IMG/VR virus record: IMGVR_UViG_3300029309_000167
Coordinates: 1 to 33,161 of that record
Strand: one strand, 5' to 3'
Length of the DNA: 33,161 nt
Source: a virus
Below the pieces are notes generated by a model. It did not search any database. It saw nothing but the letters and a program-made list of their open reading frames with translations, and had not been told where the DNA came from. Position numbers and translations under genes: made by a program. This document shows positions 3,469 to 7,908 of this stretch, in pieces; the first letter of the stretch is position 1; each line of letters begins with the position of its first letter.

Positions 3469-4955
3469 TGGCTTGGTATAACAATATATTTGGAAATAAT
3501 AAAAAACCTAAAAGACAATTTAGAAGAAGCTATACAGGTGCAAATACAGGAAGATTATTTGCAGATTTTATAACTAGCTCTACTTCTGCTGATGCTGAAA
3601 TAAAAGATAACATAAGGCTTCTTAGAGATAGAAGTAGAGATTTAGCAAGAAACGATCCATTTATAGCAAGGTATCTAAACCTGATGGTATCTAATGTGAT
3701 CGGAAAGCAGGGCGTAAGAGTTAGCTCCAAAGCTCGAAATGATGATCAGTCATTAGATATTGGAGCTAACCTGCTTATTGAAAGATCATGGAAAGAATGG
3801 TGTCAGCTTGGAAATTGTACTGTAAATGAAAGGCTTACATTTTTAGATTGTCAAAAGATATTTATTGAAACCTTATGTAGAGATGGAGAGGTATTAGTAA
3901 GAAAAGTAAAAGATAGTAGTTCACCATTTGGCTTTAAAATTAGTTTTATTGAAGCAGACCATTTAGATGAAAATAAAAATGAAACAAGATTAAAAAATGG
4001 CAATAGTATTAAGATGGGTGTTGAGCTTGATAAGGGTGGTAAACCAGTAGCATACCATTTATTTAAAAAGCATCCTTATGATAATACTTATCCAAAACCA
4101 CAACAGGAATACATTAGAGTTCCAGCAGATGAAATAATACACGCTTACCTACCACAAAGAGCAGAACAAACAAGAGGAGTATCATTTATTGCACCTATCA
4201 TAGCTAATATGAAAATGCTTAACGGATATTACGAAGCAGAGATTGTAGCTGCTAGAGTTGGCGCATCAAAAATGGGTTTTATAACTTCACCTGATGGCGA
4301 TGGTTATGTTGGAGATGGTGAAATGGAAGATACTTTTAATCCATCTATGAGCGCACAAGCAGGAGTGTTTGAACAACTACCAGCAGGAATGTCATTTGAA
4401 AGTTTTGATCCTACACATCCAACATCTGCATTTGAACCATTTACTACAAGCATATTAAGAAGTATTGCATCAGGTTTAAATATTTCTTATCACGCACTAA
4501 GCAATGATTTAACTTCTGTAAATTATTCAAGTATCAGACAAGGTGCTTTAGAAGATAGGTCTATGTATCAACTATATCAACAGTTTGTAATAGAGCATTT
4601 TATAAACCCTATATTTAAATCATGGTTAGAGATGGCTATATCTACAGGTTATATAAACTTACCTATAGCAAAGTATGACAAGTTTGCTAGAGCAATAAGT
4701 TACATACCTAGAAGTTTTGCATGGATTGATCCTTTAAAAGAAATGCAATCAAATATATTAGGTTTACAAAATGGAACTGTTACTTATGCTGATATAAGTG
4801 CTGCTTATGGTAGAGATGTTGAAGAACTATTTGAACAGCATCAAAAAGAAGTAGAACTAGCAAAACAATATGGTATAGAAATAGCTTATCAACCATTTGG
4901 AACTAAGCTACCAGTTGAAGCTAACATACAAGGTGGGGATGAAGAAGATGCCTAA
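3468..4955 (+). CDS. Portal protein, lambda gpB family
   Basis: This 495-aa protein forms the dodecameric ring at the capsid vertex through which DNA enters and leaves. It shows the lambda-portal signature along its length: an arginine-rich start, NDPFIARYLNLMVSNVIGK, WKEWCQLG, CRDGEVLVR, IPADEIIHAY-like (VPADEIIHAYLP), QRAEQTRGVSF and the long helix ending in SSIRQGALEDRSMYQ. Length is close to lambda gpB (533 aa). The start overlaps the previous stop as TAATG, implying translational coupling. The 3' end overlaps the protease-capsid gene by a few bases. The family call is firm. Confidence 0.93.
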   Translation: MAWYNNIFGNNKKPKRQFRRSYTGANTGRLFADFITSSTSADAEIKDNIRLLRDRSRDLARNDPFIARYLNLMVSNVIGKQGVRVSSKARNDDQSLDIGANLLIERSWKEWCQLGNCTVNERLTFLDCQKIFIETLCRDGEVLVRKVKDSSSPFGFKISFIEADHLDENKNETRLKNGNSIKMGVELDKGGKPVAYHLFKKHPYDNTYPKPQQEYIRVPADEIIHAYLPQRAEQTRGVSFIAPIIANMKMLNGYYEAEIVAARVGASKMGFITSPDGDGYVGDGEMEDTFNPSMSAQAGVFEQLPAGMSFESFDPTHPTSAFEPFTTSILRSIASGLNISYHALSNDLTSVNYSSIRQGALEDRSMYQLYQQFVIEHFINPIFKSWLEMAISTGYINLPIAKYDKFARAISYIPRSFAWIDPLKEMQSNILGLQNGTVTYADISAAYGRDVEELFEQHQKEVELAKQYGIEIAYQPFGTKLPVEANIQGGDEEDA

Positions 4956-7908
4956 ACCAACAGAGGGTATGAAAGCTGAAGCACAAAAAGGCATTGACTG
5001 GCGGGAAGAGCTTGGTCGTGGTGGAACTAGAATAGGTGCTGTTAGAGCAAGGCAAATAGTCAATGGTGAAAACTTATCTGATGAAACGGTTAAAAGAATG
5101 TATAGCTTTTTTAGTAGACATGAAGTTGATAAAGAAGCTGAAGGATTTGATTCAGGTGAAGAAGGTTATCCATCAAACGGAAGAATTGCATGGGCATTAT
5201 GGGGTGGCGATGCTGGATATTCTTGGTCAAGAAGATTAGTAGAACAAATGAAAAAAGAAGATAGAAGCATTGATAACGTAAGAAACGAAACTATTGAATA
5301 TAAGGTAGTAATTAAAGAGGGTGAAAACAAATATGGTGAAGGTAATAAATTTTATTTAGATGGAGAACTATCACCAAGTTTAGTAATGTTAGAAGGTAAT
5401 ACATATCAGTTTGATATATCTGATGCATCTAACAAAACTCACGCACTTAGATTTTCAACAACAGAAGATGGTGTTCATAATGATGGTGAACCATATCAAA
5501 CTGGTGTAAATATTAATGGTAAAGCAGGTGAAGATAACGCATCTATAAGTATTGAGATTACAGAAGATACGCCTGATCTTTATTATTATTGTGTAAACCA
5601 TTCGGGTATGGGTGGCAAAATAGATGTAAGACAAGTAGAAGATACTGAAGAAAGAGCGGTATCAGGTAAAGCACTAACAATGATTGAAAACAAAGTAGAA
5701 GAACACAATGAAGAAGTTGGTAATGTTAAGTCTAAAAGGACTAATGTATCAACTTTATCAAAAGTTTACGAGAGAGGGATTGGTGCTTATAAAACTAATC
5801 CAGCTTCAGTAAGACCTAATGTTAGTAGTCCTGAACAATGGGCTGCTGCTAGAATCAACAGTTTTTTATATGTTTTAAGAAATGGTAGATTCAGAAGTGG
5901 CAAACATGATACAGACCTGCTACCTGAAGGACATCCTTTATCAACAAAAAACGAGGAAAAAGCTATGAAAGATAAAGAAGATAGACATATCCTCAACATT
6001 AGTGAGCAAGACAATAAAGTTATTGTTGAGTTTGCCAAACATGGTGAGGATAAAGAAGTGGTAGAAGAAGATACAGAAATGGAATCAGCTAGACCTTATC
6101 ACTATGAGGAAGATGAAGATAAAGATAGAAAGGTTGTTAGTTTAAAAACTAGCTATAGAACTATTGATTTATCTAGGTCTGAATTTATAGATAAAGAAAA
6201 AAGATTGGTTCGAGTTGGCGTATCTTCTGAAGAACCAGTAGAACGTAGTTTTGGAATGGAAGTTCTAGGACATGCACCTGAAGATATAAACATGGAGTTT
6301 ATGCAATCAGGAAGATCACCATTATTGCTTGATCATGATATGACTAAGCAAATTGGTGTTGTAGAAGAATTTAAACTAGATCAGTCAGCTAAGAGGACAA
6401 TAGCTGTAGTCAGATTTGGAAAATCAAGACTTGCTGAAGAAGTTTTTAGAGATGTAGTCGATGGAATACGTTTAAATATATCTGTTGGCTATAGAGTAGA
6501 TAAGATGGAAAGATACAACAAAGATGATGAAACTTATTATCGTGCATCATGGACGCCTATGGAAATTAGTTCTGTAAGTGTTCCAGCAGATCAAAGCAGA
6601 TTGGTCGGAGTTGGTCGTTCTAAAGATAAACAAACTTTTAACACAACAAAGGTGGAAATGATGGAAAACGAGAAAAAAGAAATTAATCTTGATGAAGTTA
6701 GATCGCAAAGTGTTGATGAAGCAAGAAAAGAATTTCAAAAGAACTCAAAAGAAATTATTGATCTTGGCGTAAGACACAATAAAAGAGATTTAGCTAATCA
6801 AGCTATAAAAGATGGCGTTTCTGTTGAAGATTTTAGAGGACAATTATTAGATAAAATTTCTAACGATGTCTCTTTAGAAACTCCTACAGAAATTGGATTA
6901 ACAGAAAAAGAAACCAAAAGATTTAGCTTATTAAGAGCAGTTAATGCTATGGCTAATCCTACAGATAGAAAAGCCCAAGAAGCTGCAAAATTTGAATTTG
7001 AATGTTCAGAAGCAGCACAAAGAGCTTATGGGACTACAGCACAAGGCGTAATGCTTCCTGATGAAGTTTTAAGAAACTGGAATCAGAGAGATTTAAACGC
7101 TTCTGATGATTCAAATCTTATTGGTCAAGACTACAGAGCAGGTGATTTCATAGATGTACTAAGAAATAACTCTGCTGTAATGCCAATGGCAACTATGCTT
7201 AATGGACTAAGTGGTGATGTAAAAATCCCAAGAAAAACTGCTGCTTCAAGTGCTGCATTTATTAGTTCAGAGGGTGGTGCTAGTGGTGAATCTGAGTTTA
7301 CAGTAGGTTCTGTAACTATGTCTCCTAAGACATTAGGAGCGCATACAGACGTCACTAGACAATTAATGATTCAATCATCTATTGATGTTGAAAACTTAAT
7401 TAGAAATGACTTAGCACAAGCTATGGCTATTGCTATTGATGATGCTGCATTAGAGGGTTCAGGAAGTTCAGGTAATCCAACAGGTATTACTAATACTTCA
7501 GGTATAAACTCTGTATCACTTTCAAGTGCTGCTGCTCCAACATTCGCTGAGATGGTGAGTATGGAAACTGCTGTGAGAGTTGATAACGCATTACTTGGTG
7601 ATCTTGCTTACATAGTGCATCCAACCAACTATGGAACATTAAAAACTACAGAAAAAGCAACAAATACAGCACAATTTGTAGCAGTTAATGATGAAATCAA
7701 TGGCTATAAAGTCGTTGTTTCACCACAAATTACTGCAAACAATTACGTATTTGGTAATTTTAATGACTTGCTTGTTGGTATGTTTGGAGGATTAGACATT
7801 GTTGTTGATCCATTCTCAAACTCAACTTCAGGTACAGTTAGAATAGTAGCTTTACAATCAGTAGATGTAGCTGTGAGACATGCAGTTTCATTCTGTGCTG
7901 GTAGTTAA
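4948..7908 (+). CDS. Accessory-cupredoxin-prohead protease-HK97 major capsid fusion polyprotein
   Basis: The 986-aa frame has no internal stop (counted from ATG 4948; ATG 4939 and 4897 are alternatives; GGTGGGG lies at 4932-4938). Domains in order: (1) about 8-95, GRGGTRIGAVRARQI...FFSRHEVDKEAEG, an unnamed phage structural module; (2) about 116-233, a cupredoxin-like sandwich with His165 and the C-terminal loop Cys215-x2-His218-x2-Met221; (3) about 260-330, YERGIGAYKTNPASVRP...LRNGRFRSGK, another unnamed module; (4) about 380-560, an HK97-type prohead serine protease with candidate triad His463 (LLDHD), Ser512 (NISVGYR) and Glu539 (PMEISSVSVPA); (5) about 572-986, a delta/scaffold region and an HK97-fold capsid (RNNSAVMPMATMLNG, IPRKTAASSAAFISSEGG, DDAALEGSGSSGNPTGI). 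SD-preceded in-frame ATGs at 5965 and 6661 could release protease-capsid and capsid alone. Protease and capsid are usually separate genes. Domains 4-5 are firm, the rest is inferred. Confidence 0.9.
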   Translation: MPKPTEGMKAEAQKGIDWREELGRGGTRIGAVRARQIVNGENLSDETVKRMYSFFSRHEVDKEAEGFDSGEEGYPSNGRIAWALWGGDAGYSWSRRLVEQMKKEDRSIDNVRNETIEYKVVIKEGENKYGEGNKFYLDGELSPSLVMLEGNTYQFDISDASNKTHALRFSTTEDGVHNDGEPYQTGVNINGKAGEDNASISIEITEDTPDLYYYCVNHSGMGGKIDVRQVEDTEERAVSGKALTMIENKVEEHNEEVGNVKSKRTNVSTLSKVYERGIGAYKTNPASVRPNVSSPEQWAAARINSFLYVLRNGRFRSGKHDTDLLPEGHPLSTKNEEKAMKDKEDRHILNISEQDNKVIVEFAKHGEDKEVVEEDTEMESARPYHYEEDEDKDRKVVSLKTSYRTIDLSRSEFIDKEKRLVRVGVSSEEPVERSFGMEVLGHAPEDINMEFMQSGRSPLLLDHDMTKQIGVVEEFKLDQSAKRTIAVVRFGKSRLAEEVFRDVVDGIRLNISVGYRVDKMERYNKDDETYYRASWTPMEISSVSVPADQSRLVGVGRSKDKQTFNTTKVEMMENEKKEINLDEVRSQSVDEARKEFQKNSKEIIDLGVRHNKRDLANQAIKDGVSVEDFRGQLLDKISNDVSLETPTEIGLTEKETKRFSLLRAVNAMANPTDRKAQEAAKFEFECSEAAQRAYGTTAQGVMLPDEVLRNWNQRDLNASDDSNLIGQDYRAGDFIDVLRNNSAVMPMATMLNGLSGDVKIPRKTAASSAAFISSEGGASGESEFTVGSVTMSPKTLGAHTDVTRQLMIQSSIDVENLIRNDLAQAMAIAIDDAALEGSGSSGNPTGITNTSGINSVSLSSAAAPTFAEMVSMETAVRVDNALLGDLAYIVHPTNYGTLKTTEKATNTAQFVAVNDEINGYKVVVSPQITANNYVFGNFNDLLVGMFGGLDIVVDPFSNSTSGTVRIVALQSVDVAVRHAVSFCAGS
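5953..5967 (+). promoter_or_regulatory. Internal ribosome binding site and in-frame ATG before the protease domain
   Basis: GAGGA (5953-5957) lies 7 bases before an in-frame ATG (5965-5967) inside the polyprotein gene. Translation from here would start MKDKEDRHILNISEQ, just ahead of the protease domain, omitting the accessory and cupredoxin-like modules. The same ACGAGGAA context ends the gene before the tail tube start at 9533. GAGGA also encodes Glu-Glu here, so a chance SD is possible. Confidence 0.5.
6648..6663 (+). promoter_or_regulatory. Internal ribosome binding site and in-frame ATG before the capsid domain
   Basis: AAAGGTGG (6648-6655) is followed by two consecutive in-frame ATGs (6658 and 6661; spacing 2 and 5 bases). 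Starting at 6661 gives MENEKKEINLDEV and a 415-aa product, a normal length for an HK97-type capsid precursor with its delta domain. GGTGG-type SDs also precede the gpJ-like gene (13280-13287) and the polyprotein start. This could supply excess capsid subunits over protease. Confidence 0.6.

Follow-up and report, generated by a model that had tools for sequence, protein, structure and literature searches.

In this study, a small domain that reads like a blue copper protein was found ahead of the fused prohead protease and major capsid protein of a tailed marine phage. The window, meaning the whole stretch of 33,161 nucleotides analysed here (GC about 33%), carries a polyprotein gene in which, on the strength of structure modelling, residues 117-234 almost certainly form a discrete domain with a cupredoxin fold. 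In this phage group the cupredoxin is an optional, exchangeable cassette that precedes the joined protease and capsid domains. The cupredoxin itself is of a known kind; what is unexpected is its place ahead of a capsid-making protein.

Organization of the polyprotein gene

The polyprotein gene is flanked by a lambda-type portal gene and by head-closure genes in a siphophage-type cluster. The open frame spans 4897-7908, and its start in practice is the ATG at 4939, which is preceded by the Shine-Dalgarno sequence aaggtgggg and overlaps the end of the portal gene. The encoded protein consists of a helical N-terminal module, the cupredoxin-like domain, DUF5824, a probable HK97-type prohead protease and an HK97-fold major capsid protein, in that order:

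4939..7908, plus strand: polyprotein open reading frame, 989 aa, stop codon included
4939..5283, plus strand: N-terminal module, phrog_2859-like, residues 1-115, predicted all-helical, without a solved-structure match
5287..5640, plus strand: cupredoxin-like domain, residues 117-234, placed by homologue alignment, AF2 model, fold search and profile alignment
5647..5937, plus strand: DUF5824 module, PF19141 (E 4e-8), residues 237-333, helical
5983..6621, plus strand: probable HK97-type prohead protease, residues 349-561 (phrog_617/4523)
6931..7905, plus strand: HK97-fold major capsid protein core, residues 665-989 (PF05065 E 7e-38; TIGR01554 E 3e-28)

The HK97-fold capsid domain expected of a prohead protease-major capsid fusion was recognized by both PF05065 and TIGR01554, and the protease region matched phrog_617 at E 9e-144. 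Other models were reached below their cut-offs: PF04586 with 19.6 bits (cut-off 21), TIGR01543 with E 1e-4, and the fusion model NF045541 with a partial match of E 2e-40. The first-pass annotation of this DNA had put a cupredoxin-like domain at 5293-5646, N-terminal to the protease-capsid fusion, and both the position and, within 6 bases, the boundaries agree with ours; its residue numbering starts at Met4 and falls 3 short of a count from the ATG at 4939, and the residues that it singled out are correctly His168, His180, Cys218, His221 and Met224. The N-terminal module and DUF5824 were modelled on a relative that naturally lacks the cupredoxin (L223) and then fold-searched. These adjoining modules are helical and gave no match below E 2 in that search, and thus do not account for the function.

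Cupredoxin fold and relation to known families

With the 85-sequence alignment of homologues as input, the AF2 model of the domain reached a mean pLDDT of 97.2 and a pTM of 0.89, and is all beta with short helices. The 50 best PDB fold matches listed are all cupredoxins, led by the cupredoxin domain of nitrite reductase (8e-5) and rusticyanin (2e-4), and including CueO, ascorbate oxidase and pseudoazurin. The Greek-key beta sandwich that defines the cupredoxin fold was found in the AF2 model and by the fold search, and the sandwich proposed from the letters alone, which a different predicted fold was to have overturned, came through intact. The TM-scores against solved cupredoxins are modest (0.5-0.6), as expected of a diverged member in which a long insertion separates the first His from the Cys loop. 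In BFVD, the domain model was also matched structurally by A0A481YVH3, A0A481Z6J5 and A0A481Z7Q7, giant-virus 'beta-sandwich proteins' that come from Marseillevirus LCMAC201 and Pithovirus LCPAC302/304.

Searches with the window domain alone against Pfam and NCBIfam gave no match, and a PDB sequence search returned nothing useful; the antibody matches that appeared in the alignment-based PDB sequence search were set aside as chance hits through a YYC motif. PF00127, the plastocyanin/azurin family, did not match the window, whose domain falls short of the curated cut-off, and among 33 relatives it matched only four, weakly (best E 0.031). In loci L259 and L261, two bacterial domains score above the PF00127 cut-off and are also hit by the family of the window domain (2.5e-8 and 1.4e-7), and so provide a bridge between the two families at the sequence level. 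By sequence comparison, the window domain is a distant relative of PF00127 and not a curated member. It shares with amicyanin, plastocyanin and pseudoazurin (PF00127, Copper-bind) the cupredoxin fold, the His followed by Cys-x2-His-x2-Met and the amicyanin loop length, and differs from PF00127 proteins by the long insertion and the missing Pfam match. Unlike the free periplasmic electron carriers, it is part of a virion polyprotein and has no signal peptide; the free-standing, secreted form of an electron-transfer cupredoxin was not found here, as the domain is internal to a cytoplasmic polyprotein of 989 aa.

Candidate metal ligands and selection

The candidate ligands of a type-1 copper site, each conserved in 85 of 85 homologues, lie as follows:

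5440..5442, plus strand: His168 codon, first type-1 copper ligand candidate (THALRF), aligned with the amicyanin His ligand
5590..5592, plus strand: Cys218 codon, ligand candidate, aligned with the amicyanin ligand Cys
5599..5601, plus strand: His221 codon, ligand candidate, aligned with the amicyanin ligand His
5608..5610, plus strand: Met224 codon, axial ligand candidate, giving C-x2-H-x2-M as in the amicyanin loop CTPHPFM

These residues are unchanged in all 33 close and middling homologues. In the 85 diverse homologues, drawn from heads and tail fibres of phages as well as from surface proteins of bacteria and with a mean column identity of 42%, the only invariant residues are His168, Tyr216, Cys218, His221 and Met224. 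The ligand set read by the first-pass annotation is complete, but its second candidate histidine, His180, is kept in just 69 of the 85 homologues and is not a conserved ligand. A His followed by a Cys-x(2-4)-His-x(2-4)-Met loop, the pattern of a type-1 (blue) copper protein, is present. A profile-profile alignment with an amicyanin-like set gave E 1.7e-5 for the single comparison, with the four ligands in register; that set consisted of amicyanin, in a sequence that exactly matches PDB entry 1aac, together with five cupredoxins of bacteria, all of them outside the family of the window domain. The predicted fold and this alignment imply that the four candidates would converge at one site. The median pairwise dN/dS of the domain is 0.15, indicating purifying selection. 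Judging from the ligand set, copper is probably the natural metal of the site. Type-1 copper proteins usually mature outside the cytoplasm, in which copper is scarce, so that before lysis the present site may be unoccupied or filled by some other metal.

Distribution of the domain family

The domain belongs to what is, by our sequence searches, an unnamed family, with no Pfam or NCBIfam model and widespread in virion proteins of marine phages. At least 596 confirmed IMG/VR stretches carry it, as do 125 phage records, mostly of Synechococcus and Prochlorococcus phages and also of Pelagibacter and Methylophilales phages, where the carrier proteins are annotated as tail fibre, baseplate gp7, structural or hypothetical. 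Bacterial genome assemblies supplied 22 loci, some of them phage genes and others cellular; the cellular carriers are lipoproteins with a cadherin-like domain, giant Bacteroidetes repeat proteins and one RTX-type protein. The domain is not specific to this capsid protein: most of its carriers belong to tail fibres, baseplates or other parts of the virion. From these comparisons, the window domain is best described as a single example of a virion or extracytoplasmic module. The marine phage proteins L106, L101, L053 and L136 have it in two or three copies in tandem, and domains with the same ligands lie in very large repeat proteins, with open frames of 4737 and 10091 aa, on Bacteroidetes genome contigs (L154 and L157).

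The P-SSM2 tail fibre, gp7 of P-HM1 and P-HM2, S-TIM5 gp134 and the tail fibre of Pelagibacter phage Baldr belong to the same sequence family and keep the same invariant ligands. They differ from the window in that their domains sit in tail or other virion proteins, whereas here the domain is fused ahead of protease and capsid, and their annotations go no further than hypothetical, tail fibre or structural protein. S-TIM5 gp134 was considered as a head homologue and rejected, its neighbours matching tail families and the protein itself having no head match beyond the shared domain. A literature search found no report of cupredoxins as virion or phage structural proteins and none naming this domain; many subscription papers lie outside that search, which is no proof of novelty, and the domain had apparently not been recognized earlier as a copper-protein fold.

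Gain and loss of the cassette

The same protease-capsid polyprotein with the domain was found in more than 50 independent contigs from many metagenomes, in varying cassette orders: N-module, cupredoxin and DUF5824; DUF5824 and cupredoxin; or N-module and cupredoxin. Polyproteins without the domain have DUF5824 alone, another helical module or an Hva1-Tudor-like stretch (PF11160, E 1.6e-4), or start directly at the protease. The cassette slot corresponds to 4939-5964 and was followed through loci L173-L243; the second helical module reads KISLRNS... Among 60 distinct 5'-complete polyproteins, the domain is present in 24 and absent from 36. On the capsid tree of 60 rows this amounts to 14 changes of presence or absence, at least four of which are forced by supported branches, and capsids as close as 99.4-99.7% identical differ in its presence. 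L216 and L223 are empty-site alleles, in which both flanking modules are about 89-97% identical to those of the window. The domain tree places the polyprotein versions almost in a single clade, at 2 changes where shuffles give 19.7, although with so few columns this is only a lead. The simplest reading of these sequence comparisons is a single entry into the polyprotein gene followed by repeated exchange.

Other prohead protease-major capsid fusions (NF045541; phrog_617 and phrog_4523; those of CRP-811, the CRP-822-type phages and S-CBS1/S-CBS3) share the gene order terminase, portal, fusion and have a homologous core. The closest isolates are Roseobacter phage CRP-811, with 55% identity over protease and capsid, and Synechococcus phages S-CBS3 and S-LBS1. 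CRP-811 has a helical N-terminal module and an Hva1-Tudor-like stretch where the window has the cupredoxin and DUF5824, and CRP-822-type isolates are not among the 125 phage records with the domain. CRP-811 belongs to the CRP-822-type group; in the study describing that group, the predicted hosts of low-GC members are SAR86, SAR11 or NAC11-7, and the protease-capsid gene is treated simply as capsid (PMC12629253).

Putative internal starts

The codon usage of the polyprotein gene suggests that protease-capsid and capsid-only forms may also be made from internal starts, at these positions:

5953..5958, plus strand: Shine-Dalgarno-like GAGGAA upstream of internal Met343, from GAG codon bias
5965..5967, plus strand: putative internal start 1, Met343, giving a protease-capsid form without cassettes, from codon choice
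6649..6652, plus strand: Shine-Dalgarno-like AAGG upstream of Met574/575, with the Lys codon AAG in 39/41
6658..6663, plus strand: putative internal start 2, Met574/Met575, giving the capsid and its N-terminal scaffold arm only, from codon choice and a similar CRP-811 site

A Glu-Glu-Lys-x-Met motif just before the protease is kept in all relatives. Its first Glu is encoded by GAG in 76 of 76 loci (48 of 48 with identical contexts removed), against a background of 18% GAG, and this choice creates GAGGAR at Shine-Dalgarno distance from Met343. Before the capsid arm, the Lys of Lys-Val-x-Met is likewise AAG far above the 21% background, creating AAGG, and at the second start position of Roseobacter phage CRP-811 there is an aaggag site. 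Nine conserved Glu positions used as controls had GAG in 0-43%, and a tenth (FAKHxE) reached 96%; an invariant codon by itself is therefore no proof of an internal start, and the signal at the first site is strong but short of conclusive. If both starts work, three products would arise, namely the long, the protease-capsid and the capsid-only forms, and the cassettes would be carried by a minority of the subunits. The earlier view of the domain as part of the capsid polyprotein is right as to its N-terminal location, but the cassette is optional and most capsid subunits may well be made without it. In phage lambda, Nu3 is made in excess from an in-frame internal start within C. The likeness to C and Nu3 would lie in such a start giving a shorter product; the differences are that the shared C-terminal part would here be the capsid protein itself and that there are two putative internal starts. 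Our literature search on internal starts in protease-capsid fusions found nothing on point.

Proposed mechanism and alternatives

In HK97-type heads, the N-terminal arm of the capsid precursor and the protease lie inside the procapsid. By analogy with this general topology, in which the arm faces the lumen, the cupredoxin would most likely enter the head lumen on the long form. We propose that residues 117-234 hold a mononuclear type-1-like metal site made up of His168, Cys218, His221 and Met224, and that the cupredoxin acts as one of several swappable cassettes in the N-terminal arm encoded by a nested protease-capsid gene, whose long product would be rarer than the protease-capsid and capsid-only ones. 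The long form would co-assemble through its capsid domain, with the cupredoxin arm in the procapsid lumen, and the prohead protease would then cut the cupredoxin free during maturation. The freed domain would most likely remain inside the head as a small cargo protein that binds metal, or else be lost at maturation; its possible fates besides retention include ejection along with the DNA and digestion, and retention is favoured by the exact metal site being under purifying selection in an otherwise dispensable arm. Copper loading would probably follow lysis or ejection, as type-1 sites usually receive their metal outside the cytoplasm. The literature searched holds no virion proteomics for this phage group. 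As a whole chain, carriage into the procapsid lumen and release from the shell by the protease, we hold the proposal to be about evenly poised.

The most serious alternative, which we consider doubtful though far from negligible, is that the domain is a general structural block of the Ig-like sort, in which metal only staples the sandwich and the capsid-arm copy is a spacer or scaffold digested at maturation, with no redox or delivery role. It fits the many relatives in tail-fibre, baseplate, other virion and bacterial surface proteins, often in tandem, the dispensability of cassettes of the same arm, and the cleavage and loss that N-terminal arms of HK97-type capsid precursors normally undergo, as in HK97 and lambda. 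However, pure Ig-like modules need no four invariant ligands, and here only the ligands and one Tyr are invariant; nor is a precise metal site with a dN/dS of 0.15 what one would expect of a spacer that is digested.

We regard it as improbable that the His/Cys/His/Met cluster binds Zn(II), or forms a thiol-rich store or sink for Cu(I), serving sequestration or sensing and not type-1 electron transfer. Synthesis in a copper-poor cytoplasm without a signal peptide would suit such a site, and apo cupredoxins can take other soft metals; the complete type-1 ligand order, the amicyanin loop spacing and the listed fold matches, all of them copper proteins, argue for a type-1 site instead.

The first-pass annotation had offered surface display, a scaffold part removed by proteolysis or a redox role. 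By analogy with HK97-fold heads, whose N-terminal arm faces the procapsid lumen, surface display is the least likely of the three. A host-touching decoration outside the mature head would agree with the homologous domains in tail fibres, which do touch hosts, but an arm before the protease is inside in HK97-fold precursors and should be cut off the shell, and internal starts would leave few copies; we therefore give this reading very little credence. That an unrelated sandwich contains C-x2-H-x2-M by chance, or that the contig is chimeric, has only the missing Pfam and NCBIfam matches of the window sequence in its favour; it is refuted by the recurrence of the fusion in independent contigs, the invariant ligands of 85 sequences and the agreement of AF2 model and fold search, and its likelihood is practically nil.

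The preferred reading, the cupredoxin as luminal cargo, has a bolder extension, in which a copper-loaded cupredoxin is packed in the head by way of the cargo arm, is delivered with the DNA and disturbs host metal or redox physiology early in infection, as part of a large, unrecognized family of virion-borne type-1 copper domains in marine phages; at present we think this unlikely, though worth stating. If true, a never-varying type-1 copper site in hundreds of virion proteins would make the virions of abundant ocean phages metal-bearing, and one would have to ask what tailed phages need copper for. The arm of cassettes before a self-cleaving capsid gene, moreover, resembles a natural slot for loading interchangeable small proteins into phage heads.
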